64,000 nt of DNA from Nitrospirales bacterium (lineage in GTDB: Bacteria; Nitrospirota; Nitrospiria; Nitrospirales; UBA8639). Below, one piece after another: positions 27,815-37,061 of this stretch. The stretch spans positions 3,074,001-3,138,000 of the forward strand of contig JALDRJ010000002.1 in the NCBI GenBank assembly GCA_031315865.1, given 5' to 3'. Each line of letters starts with the position of its first letter. The first letter of the stretch is position 1. A program made the position numbers and the translations under genes. The notes beneath the pieces were generated by a model. It worked only from the letters and a program-made list of their open reading frames with translations, had not been told where the DNA came from and ran no database searches.

Positions 27815-29332
27815 TTACACTTTAATCGTTAAGAACAGTGGGTTTCCATTCCGGTGGACAAGTACTAGCGCAAGCTTGTCATGCGTCAGTTCCGAGACGA
27901 CTTCCTGGTACTCCCGCAGAGAATGAATCTCTTCCTTATTGATTTCACTGATGATATCGCCACGGACAAGACCAGCGCGTTCGGCTTGACTTCCTGGTTC
28001 GACATAGGTGACGACCACTCCTTCGGTCATGCCTTTGACACCAAGTGTTTGGGCTAATCGTTGGTCCAGATCCTGAACTTTCACCCCAGCCAACGCGCTC
28101 TCATGAACACTTTTCCCGACGCTTGCCAATTGGATGGAATCAGGGTGTTCCGAGATTTTCGTGCTGAGTTTCTGTTCTTCGCCATCGCGCATGATGGTGA
28201 TATCCACCGAGGTATCGACTGGTGTCCGCGTCACTTCGCGTTGTAACGTGCGTGGGTTCGTAATGGCCACCCCTTGATACATGACGATCGTGTCACCGCG
28301 TTGCAAACCCGCTCCCTCCGCTGGACTTCCGGATCGCACATCCGTTACCAACGCGCCTTTGGTGTCATCGAGGTTGAGGGTTTTGGCGAGGTCAGAGGTC
28401 AATTCTTGAATGCCAACGCCCAGGTATCCACGCACGACTTTGCCGTTCTTGACTAAGCTATCGAATACGGGTTGCGCCATGCTGGCTGGAATGGCAAAGC
28501 CAACGCCTTGTGACCCGCCGGTTCGGGAGAAGATCGCGGTGTTGATGCCGATGAGTTCACCTTGCGTGTTGACCAACGCTCCCCCAGAGTTGCCTGGATT
28601 GATCGCGGCATCTGTTTGGATGAAGTCTTCATATTGCGTAATGCCCATGCCCCCTCTTCCCAAAGCGCTCACGATGCCTTGAGTCACAGTCGAACTCAAG
28701 CCAAAAGGATTGCCGACCGCGAGGACATAATCTCCAACTTGAAGCTCCGAGATATTTCCCCATTTCAAGTAGGGGAGGTCCTTGGCATCAATCTTGAGGA
28801 TGGCGAGGTCGGTCTGAGGGTCGGTTCCCACGACGGTCCCTGTGAATTCCCGTTTGTCAACCAGCATCACGGTCACGGTTTTGGCTCCATCGACAACGTG
28901 AAAATTCGTGACAATGTGGCCGTCGGGAGAAACGATCACACCGGACCCTGACCCCATGCCGAAATGCTCTTGTGGGGGGCTTGGCATGCCTGGTTTTCCA
29001 AAGAAATCTCTAAAGGAATCAAAGGGGCCTTCTTGAAAATTCGAATTCATGACTTTTTGGGCCGTGATGTTGACGACGGCTGGTGTGACTGATTTCGCAA
29101 TCTCAGCAAACCCATGTTCTTTAACGTGTTGTTGCATTGATGCGTGAGCAGAGTCTGAGCTTTTGGTCGGGGAAGCTAAGGATACGCCGGGAACGTTGAT
29201 TGACCCCAGAATCATCGACCCAGTGAGCCAGCTTGCGACGACAAGTCCCATGACGAGTCCCAGTGTCTTCCGATTTGTCTTGCTCGTTGTCTTCTGGGAC
29301 TGTTGGCTAAACGATTGAAACAAATGTCTCAT
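27815..29332 (-). CDS. degP: DegP/HtrA (Do-type) periplasmic serine protease
   Basis: A 505-residue HtrA protease-chaperone with N-terminal membrane anchor or signal (about 27-47). The trypsin-like domain shows catalytic His in VTNFHVVDGA, Asp in DPQTDLAILKID and Ser in INPGNSGGALVN. Two PDZ domains follow: the first around RGYLGVGIQEL, the second around ALAGVKVQDL, near residues 300-390 and 405-500. It degrades or refolds misfolded envelope proteins in the periplasm. TAGGAGG lies before the start. Length and layout match DegP/MucD. Confidence 0.95.
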   Translation of the reverse strand: MRHLFQSFSQQSQKTTSKTNRKTLGLVMGLVVASWLTGSMILGSINVPGVSLASPTKSSDSAHASMQQHVKEHGFAEIAKSVTPAVVNITAQKVMNSNFQEGPFDSFRDFFGKPGMPSPPQEHFGMGSGSGVIVSPDGHIVTNFHVVDGAKTVTVMLVDKREFTGTVVGTDPQTDLAILKIDAKDLPYLKWGNISELQVGDYVLAVGNPFGLSSTVTQGIVSALGRGGMGITQYEDFIQTDAAINPGNSGGALVNTQGELIGINTAIFSRTGGSQGVGFAIPASMAQPVFDSLVKNGKVVRGYLGVGIQELTSDLAKTLNLDDTKGALVTDVRSGSPAEGAGLQRGDTIVMYQGVAITNPRTLQREVTRTPVDTSVDITIMRDGEEQKLSTKISEHPDSIQLASVGKSVHESALAGVKVQDLDQRLAQTLGVKGMTEGVVVTYVEPGSQAERAGLVRGDIISEINKEEIHSLREYQEVVSELTHDKLALVLVHRNGNPLFLTIKV

Positions 29333-29715: not shown

Positions 29716-29803
29716 TGGCGGAGGGGGTAGGATTCGAACCTACGGTCCCGTGAAGGACTCCGGTTTTCAAGACCGGCCTAATCGTCCACTCTAGCACCCC
29801 TCC
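29716..29803 (-). tRNA. tRNA-Ser (UGA), copy 1
   Basis: An 88-base minus-strand gene with encoded CCA. The acceptor pairs GGAGGGG with CCCCTCC. The anticodon arm is CCGGT-CTTGAAA-ACCGG, giving anticodon TGA. A long variable arm of class II type is present. A near-identical copy lies at 36974-37061; three positions differ, two of them compensatory in the T stem. Confidence 0.93.
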
Positions 29804-29919
29804 AAATGTCTGCAGTGATACGTGTTGGGCACCTTTGAATGAGCACATTAACATGTATAAGAATGAGAGAGAAGGGGGTTCAGCGGATGAGACAAATTTT
29901 GGAGAGCATTTCACGCCCC

Positions 29920-32253
29920 TTAAACGAAATTATACACGGTCGTTGAAAGCTCTTCTAATGTAACCGGCTTGTGAAGGATGCCGGATAACCCATCTCTTTG
30001 CAATTCAAGGACACTCTCAACTTGGCGATATCCTGTGATCAACACTACTTTAATTTCTATGCCCTTCTTCTTTAATTCATAAAAACATTCCCGGCCTGTC
30101 ATTTCCGGCATGAGATCGTCAAGCAGGATCAGGGAGATATCCTCCTTGGCATGATAGACGACTTCAAGACATTCCTTAGCCGATGAGGCTTCTAGAGTCT
30201 TATACCCTAACGATTGCAGCATGCTTGATAGAATAAAACGTGTACGTTGATCATCATCACAGACCAATACATTCAAATTTTTGGGAGGATTCATTTTGAG
30301 TGTGGGTTCGAATATCTGAGCCCCCATTTTCTGTAGGGGTTCGGTGGTCAAAAATTCGATCAAAAAGCAAGCCCCACCTTTCTTCTGATTTCTCGCTTTT
30401 ATCGTTCCGCCATGTTCTTTCACGGTTCCATAGACGACTGAAAGCCCAAGTCCAGTGCCTTCGTGAGATGATTTGGTGGAGAAAAAAGGTTCAAAAATTC
30501 TCTCTTTTTGGTCTGGGTTTATTCCTGGACCGTTATCAGTGACCTCTAGACATATTGACTCCCTCAATGACCGTGATCCCTTAGAGGAATGGTCTTCATG
30601 AAAAAAATGACTGTTAAACGTTTTGATGTATATTTTCCCGTTTTGCCCATCAACGGCTTGAATCGCATTGATCCCTAGGTTCACAAGCATATTCTTCAAT
30701 TGTGCCGAATCACCCATTAAGCAGCTATTTGTCGCCAACAATTTAAGATGAAAGTGAGCCTTCTTCTTGCTTCCCCGTCTGAGGAACAAAATGGCATCAC
30801 TGATAATCTCATGGAGGTCAACGTGAGTAAACGTCGTCCCGCCTTTTTTGGAAAACGATAACAGTTTTTTCGTGAAGGCTTTGGCGTCGTGTGCCGCATC
30901 AATAACCGTGGCGAGATAGGGCTCCAAACTGGGGTTCGTATTCCCGGCTTGAATGAGTTGGGCTGCGCCTAATAACGCACATAAGGAATTATTGAAATCG
31001 TGCGCCACTCCACCAGCCAGCATTCCCAGTGAGTCAAGTCTTTGCCCATGTTTGAGACGTTGTTCGAGGCTCAAATCCTCAAGGAGAGCTTGTAAGGTTT
31101 CTTCTAATTCTCTCAAGTATGTCTGAAAGGGAAAGACATACCCCTTTTCCTGCTGCCGTATCGCAAGGATTCCCCGGTATGCAGAACCGGACTCGTTTGC
31201 GTCATTCTCCCATGTCTTCGAAAACGTAAAAAGTGAAAATGTCATTCCATCGCATGTCATGACTTCAGGAGGTGTTTCAGACTCGATTAAGAACGTTTGG
31301 ATTTTTTCTTTCAGTGCCTTTTTGAATGTCCGATTCGTTATCCAATGAGAGAGCACGCAAGGTTTCTCAGAATCTTTAACGTAACAAAAAAGTAGCGGCT
31401 CTTCTCTGTGAAAGTATGACAGGAGCTCGACACTATGTTTAATGAATATGTGTGGCTGTTTGACCGCATATCGCAATCGATTGAATTCTCTTGACAGCAC
31501 AAGCTTGGCATCACTGACACTTTTTACTAATAAGCAGTTCGCTTGCTGTGCCGTGAGTTCGGTCGCCTGACCAAAAAAACGGAGATTGCCACCCGATAGC
31601 ACAGCAAGATGCGTGGCGTGCGAAATCGTCTCGTCGTATTTTTCAGTGGAGAACACGAACGTAATACCTTGCTGCGAAAGTCGAACAATTTTCTTGAAAA
31701 GATGATCGTTGCTGTGTTCGTCTAAATCCTGAAAGACTCCATTCAATATGTACAAAGATGTCTTGCACAGAAACCCACGAACCAGCGAAGCGATCACTCG
31801 TTCTTTACGTGACATCAGAGTGGATGGTCGTTCCCATTCTAACTCTTGACCTAATTCATCATATAAATCTTGAGCCCGTTTACGGAGGTGATTTCTATTT
31901 AAAATTCCTTCACCAATCGCCAGTGGAACTCCCAAAAAAAGATTATCGAATAACGAGAGTTCATGGTAATAGCCTAGGTCGCCAAATATTCCTGAGATCG
32001 AGATTTTCTCTGACGAGGTAGGATGGAGATCATGGAGATATTGCACGGATCCTTGTGTGGGGTTCAGGTGTCCAGACAATATTTGCAGGAGAGCACTCGA
32101 TTCGTCAGGGTTTTCACTGGCGATTGCGACAATGGCCCCCTGAGGGATAGAGAACGAGATTTCCCGAAGAATCGGAGGAAACGTCTCACCGTGGTACGAC
32201 ACATCTTCCAAGGTCAGGATATGGTGGCCAGCAGAATTTGAGTAAAGAGACAT
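29920..32253 (-). CDS. pseudo-ABC ATPase fused to hybrid histidine kinase and receiver
   Basis: A 777-residue fusion. Residues 1-235 have the shape of a sugar-ABC ATPase (RbsA-like) but all catalytic motifs are destroyed: Walker A reads SENPDESS with Ser52 where Lys is needed; signature region LMSRKER; Walker B ILNGVFQDLD with Asp and Glu replaced by Asn171 and Gly172; the switch His is missing. Residues 240-390 are a possible degenerate GAF-like region. The kinase is intact: H-box GGVAHDFNN (His418), N-box NLGINA (Asn529), DNGPGI, FEPFFSTK and GTGLGL. A complete receiver follows with DDD at 666-668, Asp712 in LLDDLMPEMTG, Thr740 and Lys762. The gene ends a module with an RbsB-like protein and an RbsC-like permease, the permease stop lying 4 bases away. 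It most likely reports permease state to the kinase. Confidence 0.85.
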   Translation of the reverse strand: MSLYSNSAGHHILTLEDVSYHGETFPPILREISFSIPQGAIVAIASENPDESSALLQILSGHLNPTQGSVQYLHDLHPTSSEKISISGIFGDLGYYHELSLFDNLFLGVPLAIGEGILNRNHLRKRAQDLYDELGQELEWERPSTLMSRKERVIASLVRGFLCKTSLYILNGVFQDLDEHSNDHLFKKIVRLSQQGITFVFSTEKYDETISHATHLAVLSGGNLRFFGQATELTAQQANCLLVKSVSDAKLVLSREFNRLRYAVKQPHIFIKHSVELLSYFHREEPLLFCYVKDSEKPCVLSHWITNRTFKKALKEKIQTFLIESETPPEVMTCDGMTFSLFTFSKTWENDANESGSAYRGILAIRQQEKGYVFPFQTYLRELEETLQALLEDLSLEQRLKHGQRLDSLGMLAGGVAHDFNNSLCALLGAAQLIQAGNTNPSLEPYLATVIDAAHDAKAFTKKLLSFSKKGGTTFTHVDLHEIISDAILFLRRGSKKKAHFHLKLLATNSCLMGDSAQLKNMLVNLGINAIQAVDGQNGKIYIKTFNSHFFHEDHSSKGSRSLRESICLEVTDNGPGINPDQKERIFEPFFSTKSSHEGTGLGLSVVYGTVKEHGGTIKARNQKKGGACFLIEFLTTEPLQKMGAQIFEPTLKMNPPKNLNVLVCDDDQRTRFILSSMLQSLGYKTLEASSAKECLEVVYHAKEDISLILLDDLMPEMTGRECFYELKKKGIEIKVVLITGYRQVESVLELQRDGLSGILHKPVTLEELSTTVYNFV

Positions 32254-32257
32254 GGGA

Positions 32258-33238
32258 TTATCGTCTGGGATGTTCAGTGACTGTCAGATCGATCAGCAAC
32301 GTACTTAAGACCAAGATTCCGGCCATGACATAACTGACCTCTGGCTGGAGCCCTAAAAACTCTAATTGATGCTGAATGATGACGAGGAGGATAGTGATAA
32401 TGAAAATCCGTGACGGAGAAGGCAGGCGACGTTGAAGGCCAGCATTACTAATGATCACGATTGCCAGGGCATCAAATGGAAGCCGCATCCCAATATTGGG
32501 ACTCGCGGTATTGAGTCGAGCATAGAAAATCGTGCTTGCAAGGAGGGCCGTCAAGGCAGCGAAAATAAAGGCGAAAATTTTATAATGACGGGTCGATATC
32601 CCGCAAAATCGAGCTCGCCTGCCCCCTAATCCTATTGCAATTAAATTCCTTCCGGTTGTCGAACGTCGAAAGAATGCCTCTAAAGCACCTACCAGTGCGA
32701 GAAAGACGAGGATGGATGTGGGGAGCCCCCAGACTTCCCCCCACCCTAAGGATTCCCAAACAGCCACGGTTGTACCAGGTTGCGAAGTAGAGGGCATTCC
32801 ATCGCAGAGAAAAAAAACTACGCCTCGTATGATGAACATCATCGTAAAGGTCACAACCAATGTAGATCCGACTGTGACAGAGATAATTCCGTTAACAAAA
32901 CCAATGACTCCTACTAGGGGAATAATCAGGAGCATGGCTATGAATGGAGACAGAGTATTGGAGAGCATTGAGAAGGTCATTAAGCTGAACGCAAAGGTTG
33001 CTCCCAACGACAAGTCATACTCATTGACATGAAAGACCATTAACGCTCCTAAAGCGATAATCCCTAGTACAGCCGTTTCATGCCCGATGCTTGCTAAACT
33101 CCACACGGCGACGTTATGTGGGTTGATGAGTGACAATGTCGCAATAATGCACATCATCATCAGGATCATGACCCATTCGACCGTAGAAAACTTTTGGTAG
33201 TCGACAGGGGGTTGATGGTACAGATTTGAGGTTACCAC
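32258..33238 (-). CDS. RbsC-like permease of the sensor module
   Basis: A 326-residue BPD_transp_2-family inner-membrane protein with eight to ten hydrophobic segments. The family loop is preserved as TTGRNLIAIGLGG followed by ARFCGISTRHYKIFAFIF near residue 195, which in true importers contacts the ATPase. The Gly-rich segment that normally follows (IGGTSLSGG-like) is degraded to AIVIISNAGLQRRLPSPS, which suggests that translocation is impaired. It starts at GTG overlapping the stop of the RbsB-like gene by 7 bases. Its partner ATPase domain is the catalytically dead one encoded just downstream. I infer that it acts as a transmembrane signal transducer. Confidence 0.8.
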   Translation of the reverse strand: MVTSNLYHQPPVDYQKFSTVEWVMILMMMCIIATLSLINPHNVAVWSLASIGHETAVLGIIALGALMVFHVNEYDLSLGATFAFSLMTFSMLSNTLSPFIAMLLIIPLVGVIGFVNGIISVTVGSTLVVTFTMMFIIRGVVFFLCDGMPSTSQPGTTVAVWESLGWGEVWGLPTSILVFLALVGALEAFFRRSTTGRNLIAIGLGGRRARFCGISTRHYKIFAFIFAALTALLASTIFYARLNTASPNIGMRLPFDALAIVIISNAGLQRRLPSPSRIFIITILLVIIQHQLEFLGLQPEVSYVMAGILVLSTLLIDLTVTEHPRR

Positions 33239-34266
33239 TCTGGCACGATTCCTCGGGCAATCCCTGGAGTCACGAGGACTTGTGGGATTTCAATGAAAAA
33301 GTTTACGTGTTCTCCATCCATTAATTTTTGAACTGTTTGAATCACCTTTTGTCCTTCCTCAGCAATGGAAGAATACGTGGCATACTGAATATCTCCAGTA
33401 TGCATGAAGTTCTTCACATCCTGAGTGAATTCGAGTGTCACAACCTTGATGTCCTTAATTTTATTTTTTTGAAGAATGTGCACGACCGCCACAGCCGCTT
33501 CTGCCCATTGTGTGACAATCACCGTACCCAGTGTCTTTTCATCGACCATTCTTTGAATTTCACGTGCGACGATCTGAATATTCCATCCAGGAATGAGCAG
33601 CTTTTCGATGAGCGTCCAGTGATCTTTGTGGGCATCAAAGGAATCAAGAAATCCTTTCTCTCGAAATCGTTGCGGTGCTGTTCCGGGCGCCCCTTCAATT
33701 AAAACGATATTTATTGGCGTATCTCTTGCCAAAAGTTCGACAGCCTTTCCAAGTATTTGGCCGGCTTTCAACTCATCGCGACCGATATGAGCATTCACAA
33801 TGGCGGATGGCTGGTTTTGTGTATGACCGACCCCATTTGTGAATGTCACAAAGGGAATAGACTTTTCTCTGATTAACTTAATAATGGCTGACATGGCTTG
33901 GTTATCAACAGAACACAGAGCGATCGCATCAAAGGTTTTACCTAACAAAACATTCTCGACCTGCTCTATTTGAACGTAGGGGTCCCATCCGGCATTAAAT
34001 GTCACGAGATCTATATCAAGTCTCTTCGCTTCTTGATCCATGGCACGTGTTTCAATCGAGAAAAATTTCACGGAGCCTGGAAGGAAGACAGCCATGTGCT
34101 TTTTATGGTCTTCGAATTGATGCAGTTGAATGAAAATGTTCAAGATTATCAGGAGACATAAAACCCCAAGCAGAGAAAGCAGTATTTTTTGGGGAAATGC
34201 GAACGATGGCATGTCAATGCATCGATGCTCACGCCCCTCTATGTTCAGTGCGTTTATGATACTCAT
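33232..34266 (-). CDS. membrane-tethered RbsB-like periplasmic binding protein
   Basis: A 344-residue protein with a strong uncleaved-looking transmembrane segment (about residues 28-48, ILLSLLGVLCLLIILNIFI) followed by a type I periplasmic binding fold of the sugar-binding RbsB group. Hallmarks are AVFLPGSVKFFSIETRAMDQ, IEQVENVLLGKTFDAIALCS, AHIGRDELKAGQILGKAVEL and VIVTQWAEAAVAVVHI. No cleavage motif such as AxA is present after the helix, so it probably stays anchored, unlike free RbsB. ATG codons at 34266 and 34212 are both possible starts. It is coupled to the permease gene. Confidence 0.8.
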   Translation of the reverse strand: MSIINALNIEGREHRCIDMPSFAFPQKILLSLLGVLCLLIILNIFIQLHQFEDHKKHMAVFLPGSVKFFSIETRAMDQEAKRLDIDLVTFNAGWDPYVQIEQVENVLLGKTFDAIALCSVDNQAMSAIIKLIREKSIPFVTFTNGVGHTQNQPSAIVNAHIGRDELKAGQILGKAVELLARDTPINIVLIEGAPGTAPQRFREKGFLDSFDAHKDHWTLIEKLLIPGWNIQIVAREIQRMVDEKTLGTVIVTQWAEAAVAVVHILQKNKIKDIKVVTLEFTQDVKNFMHTGDIQYATYSSIAEEGQKVIQTVQKLMDGEHVNFFIEIPQVLVTPGIARGIVPEW

Positions 34267-34662
34267 TTCGTACGGAGTGTTTATGGGCTATGCGAATGAG
34301 TGCTTTCACAGCCTCATTTGAGCCGTTATGCCGTTTCTTGGGCGTCTCTTCTTACAAGTGAGGAGTGCTCGCTCGTTCATAGCCGTTTCAAATAACTTAC
34401 CGTATGGTTCCCGTCGTGCCGCGCGAGATTTGTCGTATTTGCTGATTGGAACTTATTGGGATTCGCTATCAATTGAGTGATGAACAAAACAATGTGTCAG
34501 GGTAATCTCAGTACTCATGTAGTGTATGTTTGGCTCTCTCCTGTACATTTGTGGGGAAGTGCATTCAATGTGTCACGCGTCTTTTGGTGTCAGCAACGTT
34601 CCTGACAGGTCGTCAAGTCCCTTGTTGTTCATCAGATCGCCATATTTTCCCTTCGTAGCCGA
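34267..34662. other. gap inside the sensor module
   Basis: A 396-base region between the AmiC-like gene and the RbsB-like gene. I find no convincing gene. It probably contains a promoter for the downstream three genes, but no element is clear enough to call. Confidence 0.4.
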
Positions 34663-36108
34663 TCAATCTTCTTCGGAGGATGGCTCAGGTTCTACCCATG
34701 GGTACAGAACTTTCTCACATAAATTACAGAGACTGTGGGAAAGCTTAGTGTGGTGGGTGGAACTTAAATAGGCCTCTACACTCTGCCATTCACCATTTTC
34801 CTTAAATAGGCTTTTGCAGACAGCGCAGATTATCTGGAGGTTCTTTGTTGAGACGTTTTTTTCATCCATCGTATGTATATGGCAGGTGGTATGAGCGGGT
34901 TCTTCCCCTACCATCGTATGATCGGGATTCGTTCGTCTGAGATTCCAGTTTTGATGGCCAAGCTCTGGGAATTCTTTCATGACTTCAAGTATCAGTGAGC
35001 GGTTGCTGATCGCGATCTCTTCCATGCCTAACCAGGGCAGGGGTGGGAGTGGAGAGGGGCTGGTCCAGATGATATCGAACAAGCCATCTTCTCGAGCTCT
35101 TCCAATGCGTGCGTACCTTCCAACATGATGATTTTTCTGTATCTGAATCATACCGCTAGGGCCATTGAAAAAAGTTCCGATAAGGTGTTCAGACAAGACT
35201 TCGCAATCGAAGGTTTTGCAGCGTTCGACTAGTTGTTTCCATAGATACACCTGACTGTAAGATGTCACAACGGGATCGGAGATCGGATAATGTGGGCCAA
35301 GATATTCTTTGCATTTTTTCACGAAACGTTGATTTTCATCATCAGGGATCGTTGAAAAATAGTTCCAGCAGGCATAACTCCCTTTGACTTCCTCCGCAAT
35401 GCTCAGAGATTCGATTTCGGAAAGGCTAAAGGACATAATCGGGATAACTTCAGGGCCTATCCCAGCCTGATACAGTTTTTTGAAAAACACTAAGTTACTG
35501 TCTCCATTAAGAGTATTAAAGATTATGTCTGGCTTACATTCGATGATCATGTCGATGAGATTGGAAACATTCGTCGATCCCAACGGTATATATTCCTCAC
35601 CTAATACGGTTCCTTTATCATTTTTGACGAATAGACTAATCAAGCGATTGCTGGTTCTTGGAAAGACGTAGTCAGAACCAACGAGGACGCAACGGTTGAA
35701 GCCTCTCGATAACGCCCACTTTACTCCAGGAAGGATCTGTTGGTTAAAACAACTTCCCGTATATATGATGCAAGGGGCTTCCTCTAAGCCTTCGTATTGC
35801 AGGGGATACCAGAGAAGGGATTGGTGTCGTTCAATGATGGGCTTGACGGCTTTTCGCGATGCAGAGGTCCAACAGCCAAACACACAGGCGACATCATTTT
35901 TCGTTAAGAGAGTTTCTGCTTGGGATGCATATTCCTCGGGAATTGATTTGCAATCTTTGACGATTGCTTCAATTTGTTGACCCAGCACGCCTCCAGATTG
36001 GTTAATTTCGTGAACAGCCATTTCAATGGCTTGTACCATCGGAACCTCATTTAACTTCATCGTTCCGGAGAGCGAATGAATGATTCCAATTTTTATGGTG
36101 TGAGTCAT
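34663..36108 (-). CDS. cytoplasmic AmiC/UrtA-like ligand-binding protein with Cys-rich signalling tail
   Basis: A 481-residue protein. Residues 1-390 are an amide/urea-type binding domain: TIKIGIIHSLSGTMKLNEVP at the start, ASRKAVKPIIERHQSLLWYP, YPLQYEGLEEAP, GSDYVFPRTSNRLI. It resembles AmiC and UrtA, but no signal peptide exists, nor in the 36 residues of a longer frame to 36216. It is therefore probably cytoplasmic, like AmiC. The last 55 residues form a separate unit with IICAVCKSLFKENGEWQSVE and SHSLCNLCEKVLYPW. I know this Cys-pair tail from the C-termini of bacterial two-component signalling proteins. The combination suggests a soluble sensor that touches a regulatory partner, perhaps the kinase fusion. 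No classic Shine-Dalgarno sequence is visible at either start. Confidence 0.75.
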   Translation of the reverse strand: MTHTIKIGIIHSLSGTMKLNEVPMVQAIEMAVHEINQSGGVLGQQIEAIVKDCKSIPEEYASQAETLLTKNDVACVFGCWTSASRKAVKPIIERHQSLLWYPLQYEGLEEAPCIIYTGSCFNQQILPGVKWALSRGFNRCVLVGSDYVFPRTSNRLISLFVKNDKGTVLGEEYIPLGSTNVSNLIDMIIECKPDIIFNTLNGDSNLVFFKKLYQAGIGPEVIPIMSFSLSEIESLSIAEEVKGSYACWNYFSTIPDDENQRFVKKCKEYLGPHYPISDPVVTSYSQVYLWKQLVERCKTFDCEVLSEHLIGTFFNGPSGMIQIQKNHHVGRYARIGRAREDGLFDIIWTSPSPLPPLPWLGMEEIAISNRSLILEVMKEFPELGHQNWNLRRTNPDHTMVGEEPAHTTCHIHTMDEKNVSTKNLQIICAVCKSLFKENGEWQSVEAYLSSTHHTKLSHSLCNLCEKVLYPWVEPEPSSEED

Positions 36109-36216
36109 GTGTTGTAATCGTCTCTTTAGTGTTCGTGAGTAGATATTCTTTGTACAGCCCTTGATTTGCTTTCCCCGATGACGAATTGTCCGGTAAGGTT
36201 GCTCAATCGGAGCCAT

Positions 36217-36973
36217 AGTGCGCAGACTCTACTAATGTGCAGCGCATCATAACGTATGGCATGTCCTCCACTTATTCTGATCTTTCCCTCATCACAACAC
36301 CATGGCTAAATGCCTTTCAACTGGAGCCATAGGGCATCGGCTTTGAGCGTTTGTCATTTGCGTACCTATAGGAAAAACAAGGTGGATAAGAGCGGAGAGG
36401 GGGGCTTTCTGTTTTGGTGTTCTTTCTCATCGTGGCGTCTCTCAATTTCTTGGATGATCTGTGGATGTCCTGCAACACCCCCTTGCACCCCGCGACGCCG
36501 CTTCTGTTCAACTCACCACAAACAGCACTTTCGAGTGTAGTCGAAGAACCAAAGTGGCTCGTCTTAGGGATTGAGAAACTGTTCGACGGGATTCTTTGTT
36601 ATTTTCATTTCTCTCAACCGATCTGGATAAAGTTACAGATACTCTCTAAAAATACGTTTGGATAATATCAGATATATTCCTCACCTCCTGTCTAAATCAA
36701 GGGAAAAGACCCGTTAGCTATGACTTTTCCTGAAAATCAGACATAGACTGAAGGCAAAGTCGGAAATTTAGAAGTGGGTACAAGATTCTGGACAATGGAT
36801 TGAGCTGTGCAGAAAGACCGGCGTACTGGCAGTAGGGGGTTCGTGACAGCAGAATGGTGAGCGGAAAGGACGGCGTTGACGTCGAGAAAAAGGAACCGGG
36901 TCGCGACGAAGCGTTGACTAGCTAAAGCAATATAGAATGACTCGTAGAGAATCTCAGTTTACTTGTGTTTATA
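36217..36973. other. long intergenic region upstream of sensor module
   Basis: About 750 bases between the AmiC-like gene and tRNA-Ser copy 2. Small frames exist on both strands, none with a domain or good ribosome binding site. A short imperfect repeat (CTATGGCTCC followed by a similar A/G-rich stretch on the minus strand) occurs near 36216 and 36330. I find no integrase or att-like core. Confidence 0.45.
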
Positions 36974-37061
36974 TGGCGGAGGGGGTGGGATTCGAACCCA
37001 CGGTCCCGTGAAGGACTCCGGTTTTCAAGACCGGCCTATTCGTCCACTCTAGCACCCCTCC
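36974..37061 (-). tRNA. tRNA-Ser (UGA), copy 2
   Basis: An 88-base minus-strand gene with encoded CCA and anticodon TGA, as in copy 1. Differences are an A-U to G-C pair exchange in the T stem and one base in the D region. It lies 265 bases downstream of serS, its cognate synthetase, on the same strand. Confidence 0.93.

Follow-up and report, generated by a model that had tools for sequence, protein, structure and literature searches.

The window analysed here (the full 64,000-nt stretch, with positions counted from its first letter) carries a minus-strand locus that combines parts of a sugar ABC importer with a hybrid histidine kinase, which raises the question of whether its products import a substrate or sense one. 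The sequence-only reading had taken the locus for a sensor rather than an importer. A putatively dead ATPase domain in all three homologues now at hand, signs of purifying selection and the retention of kinase and receiver residues support that view. We consider it probable, on comparative sequence evidence, that the binding protein, the permease and a hybrid kinase docked through its pseudo-ATPase domain form a two-component receptor that spans the membrane and derives from an ABC importer. The locus and its flanks contain:

29716-29803, minus strand: tRNA-Ser(TGA), one flank of the insert
29920-32253, minus strand: fusion protein, 777 aa, with ABC_tran (1.9e-8), HisKA (5.6e-7), HATPase_c (1.3e-20) and Response_reg (2.7e-19)
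31069-31548, minus strand: linker of the fusion (residues 236-395), no Pfam match
31549-32253, minus strand: pseudo-ATPase domain of the fusion (residues about 1-235), nearest to the N-terminal domain of CUT2 sugar ATPases
32258-33238, minus strand: RbsC-like permease, BPD_transp_2 (5.8e-29)
33232-34266, minus strand: RbsB/TorT-like binding protein, Peripla_BP_4 (1.7e-28)
34663-36108, minus strand: UrtA/AmiC-like binding protein, Peripla_BP_5 (2e-126)
36974-37061, minus strand: tRNA-Ser(TGA), the other flank of the insert, a second copy 97% identical to the first

The four minus-strand genes reported earlier at 29920-36108 are all present there, with Pfam domains that agree with their descriptions. 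Their order is UrtA/AmiC-like protein, a 396-base gap, binding protein, permease and fusion. The gene ends give a 7-base overlap between binding protein and permease and a 4-base gap between permease and fusion, as had been noted, and we read these three genes as a tight operon. No gene for a phosphotransfer protein or a DNA-binding regulator adjoins it. The fusion comprises, in order, one ABC-ATPase-like domain, the linker, HisKA, HATPase_c and the receiver. Near its N terminus, at residues 21-52, the binding protein carries a single strong hydrophobic segment, which bears out its earlier description as membrane-tethered; a scan of the fusion and the UrtA-like protein detected no hydrophobic segment in either sequence. 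Lacking a membrane segment, the fusion would need a membrane partner.

The ABC domain is best matched by CUT2 ATPases, namely by the N-terminal halves of AraG, LsrA, YtfR and AlsA. We aligned the domain with a CUT2 ATPase from an Aureimonas plasmid whose motifs are intact. In the window's fusion SENPDESSA stands where the reference has GENGAGKST (Walker A), FGD replaces HQE (Q-loop), YILNGVF replaces LIMDEPT (Walker B and the catalytic Glu) and FSTE replaces YITH (H-loop). Walker A is lost, along with the Gln of the Q-loop, the catalytic Glu and the His of the H-loop. Two homologues from Nitrospira (see below) carry other letters at the catalytic motifs that are just as disabling, and none of the three proteins has the P-loop glycines and lysine, the catalytic Glu or the H-loop His. 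The domain is thus predicted to be catalytically dead, as the sequence-only reading had claimed. The three proteins share an unchanged stretch, SLFDN-x-FLGVP, directly after the Q-loop. It lies on the side of the ATPase domain that, in ABC importers, faces the permease coupling helix, and its conservation suggests that the docking side has been retained while catalysis has been lost. The predicted structure of the ABC domain plus linker is a poor model (mean pLDDT 53), and the GAF/PAS-like secondary structure of the linker belongs to that low-confidence model.

The signalling half appears intact, consistent with the earlier description of a complete hybrid histidine kinase and receiver. The fusion has the H-box His, the HATPase_c ATP-binding boxes and the receiver Asp, and His418, Asp712 and the residues of the N, G1, F and G2 boxes are invariant in the three homologues.

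The earlier proposal to look for the same fusion and neighbourhood in other genomes was productive. A search of 396 genomes of the phylum gave two fusion homologues, each of 774 aa, in Nitrospira sp. RBC069 and RBC044, ammonia-oxidising Nitrospira MAGs from one wastewater plant (PMC7305129). At both loci the binding protein, permease and fusion occur in the same order, each gene overlapping the next, with identities to the window's proteins of 43-45% for the binding protein, 43-44% for the permease and 37-38% for the fusion. That the three core genes recur with their order unchanged in two further genomes argues for an association beyond chance. The permease subfamily, which retains the coupling-helix region and has the motif VNEYD[LF]S[LV]G, occurs in only three of the 236 genomes of the order (the window's genome, RBC069 and RBC044), and the family so far numbers three, the two from Nitrospira sharing one wastewater plant as their source.

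Wider searches returned nothing further of this kind. A scan of the genome collection with strict permease patterns, which may miss distant members, found the two Nitrospira loci alone, fusion residues 1-395 matched only ordinary ABC ATPases in a set of 60 relatives, and no record in the plasmid collection covers 80% of the fusion. Long partial plasmid matches (Azospirillum, Rhizobium, Agrobacterium) were set aside, with no comparable permease/binding-protein pair listed beside the kinase. Retention of the Walker motifs at a homologous locus, which the sequence-only reading had named as evidence that would speak against it, was found neither in the order nor in the phylum sample or the plasmid collection.

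In the fusion, dN/dS between RBC069 and RBC044 reaches 0.32 in the dead domain, against 0.20 in both linker and kinase and 0.08 in the receiver; the permease gives 0.14 and the binding protein 0.17. These values indicate that all parts are under purifying selection, weakest on the dead domain. Together with the same catalytic losses in the homologues, the value of 0.32 argues for a maintained family and not for a decaying gene.

The binding protein falls in the ribose/TorT group, with TorT among its best family matches. Compared with Vibrio RbsB, it retains the pocket FF and one Arg, and it has T-N in place of a D-R pair, W in place of Asn, E in place of Asp and S in place of Gln. We take these replaced residues of the Vibrio protein to be ribose contacts, and their substitution suggests that the ligand is probably not ribose. 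A hint of a saccharide-like ligand comes from the LamB porin gene (PF02264) directly after the fusion gene at both Nitrospira loci. Among the 79 genomes of the genus of these MAGs, LamB occurs only in the two that have the trio, and adjacent to it; this pairing may descend from one acquisition and is then linkage, not independent repeats. A search of the window's genome, run without a positive control, revealed no porin homologue. Two plasmid relatives of the binding protein (L063 5893-7769 and L065 4947-8037) adjoin chemoreceptor or diguanylate cyclase genes, with no permease of their own beside them, and so stand in signalling contexts.

The locus lies in a low-GC insert of 7.2 kb between the two tRNA-Ser(TGA) copies (29716-37061), with a GC content of 44.9% versus 49.3% for the window. 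Genomes of the same genus have serS, one or two tRNA-Ser copies and then dnaJ at this place, with the insert absent; where two copies are present, they lie 0.2-0.4 kb apart. The insert was probably acquired between a pre-existing tandem tRNA pair. Next to the insert is an HtrA-type protease gene (27815-29332). No counterpart was found at the equivalent position in two genomes of the same genus, so the insertion may be larger and include this gene. About 12 kb separates the trio of RBC044 from rdgB-rph (L024 178-1534 and 13418-17878), and rdgB-rph is near the window's trio as well, which could be a shared hotspot or a coincidence.

These features can be assembled into a working scheme, which we hold to be somewhat better than an even bet, where an importer scaffold has become a receptor and the coupling helices drive a pseudo-ATPase dimer through which a soluble hybrid kinase receives its input. 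A ligand, perhaps saccharide-like, would close the binding protein onto the permease dimer. The kinase dimer would supply two pseudo-ATPase domains to the two docking sites of the permease dimer, and movement of the coupling helices would move both domains, altering autophosphorylation at His418 and transfer to Asp712. The phosphoryl group would then pass to an unlinked phosphotransfer protein or regulator. The complex would carry out no ATP-driven import.

The importer-like parts of the locus require that transport be weighed against such a scheme. The complex could still be an importer whose permease uses another cellular ATPase, with the kinase fusion reading out or regulating transport (a transceptor). 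The permease and its coupling-helix region look intact, the LamB gene adjoining the Nitrospira trio fits uptake, and an unrelated ATPase could be borrowed. Against this, a search of the window's genome and RBC044 with XylG, a model of CUT2 ATPases, gave only matches of one domain's length and no RbsA-type double ATPase. The permease is also the sole PF02653 protein in each of these two genomes, leaving no other such system there to lend an ATPase, and the dead domain would compete for the identical docking sites. RBC069 has a further PF02653 pair beside a two-domain XylG match that is divided between two reading frames; this set resembles a urea-type transporter. On balance, we regard continued import as unlikely.

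We give much less credence to a domain that still binds or hydrolyses ATP through a non-standard site, which would make the complex an unusual transporter-kinase. The best solved-structure match to the domain profile is CFTR NBD1, and some degenerate ATPase domains retain nucleotide binding, but the residues missing from all three homologues include the P-loop glycines and lysine, the catalytic Glu and the H-loop His. Least probable in our estimate is the decaying remnant of an acquired transporter, fused to a kinase by accident. Acquisition is indicated by the low GC content and the site between tRNA genes, and dN/dS of the dead domain exceeds that of the other parts; however, it is well under 1, and a second family of the order has, with open frames and at 37-38% identity, the same fusion with the same losses. 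The receptor remains the reading that we prefer, and we infer both signalling and the absence of transport from the sequence.

How such a receptor relates to known systems depends on which of its parts is compared. CUT2 importers (RbsBCA, AraFGH, LsrACDB) have homologous parts, namely RbsB, RbsC and the N-terminal half of the RbsA-type ATPase, and the locus has their pairing of an RbsB-type binding protein with a PF02653 permease. It differs from them in having a tethered binding protein and in its ATPase part: CUT2 importers have a double-domain ATPase whose Walker motifs are intact in one half or both, the locus a single ABC domain that has lost its catalytic motifs and is fused to a hybrid kinase. 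As in TorT-TorS, LuxP-LuxQ and XylFII-LytS, an RbsB-family binding protein is co-encoded with a histidine kinase that it would feed. The kinases of those systems have their own membrane and periplasmic part, whereas here the kinase has no hydrophobic segment, and a permease and pseudo-ATPase would sit between it and the binding protein. FtsEX is an ABC-type complex that passes a signal, not a substrate, across the membrane; it signals outward and hydrolyses ATP, whereas signalling here would be inward and the ATPase domain appears dead. Transporter folds also serve sensing with histidine kinases in BceAB-BceS, CbrA and the 5TMR kinases, which use an ECF S-component fold (PMC11109136). BceAB, however, has a working ATPase and a separate kinase, and the 5TMR kinases and CbrA have one membrane domain with neither a binding protein nor an ABC domain.

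In the literature searched, which mostly excludes subscription journals, we found no importer whose components include a pseudo-ATPase acting as kinase input domain, in agreement with the earlier statement that no described system of this architecture was known to that reading. As far as these searches show, what is new is the proposed signal route from permease through dead ATPase to kinase; binding-protein-driven and transporter-like kinases are already known. If the proposal is correct, an ABC importer has been turned into a receptor, and its nucleotide-binding domain now serves as a mechanical adaptor that links the permease to the kinase. Ligand-driven movements of ABC importers could then be studied cleanly in a system free of ATP turnover, and some Nitrospira-group bacteria would possess an unexpected sensor, possibly for a saccharide.

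The sequence-only reading had described a four-gene system that included the UrtA/AmiC-like protein. The three-gene core is conserved, but the UrtA/AmiC-like gene, separated from the window's operon by the 396-base gap, is missing at both the RBC069 and RBC044 loci, and we dropped the protein as a fourth subunit. Its assignment to the UrtA/AmiC family holds: it has the Peripla_BP_5 fold, and among solved structures it lies near UrtA and AmiC. It has no export signal and the window's genome has no urea-type (UrtBC) permeases, features at odds with a urea ABC transporter. Its Cys-rich C-terminal module (34663-34830; CxxCK...W..vE.Yl...SH.lC..C) matches no Pfam family and also occurs at the ends of stand-alone response regulators in relatives. 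The absent signal and the Cys-rich module agree with the earlier description of a cytoplasmic protein with a Cys-rich tail, and the protein is likely a separate cytoplasmic sensor. Elsewhere in the window's genome, the gene for a membrane-anchored UrtA-like paralogue overlaps a large hybrid kinase gene (L046 5798-10005), and the pairing recurs in a same-genus genome (L047 5272-10891), which suggests that UrtA-type proteins have been coupled to signalling repeatedly in this lineage.
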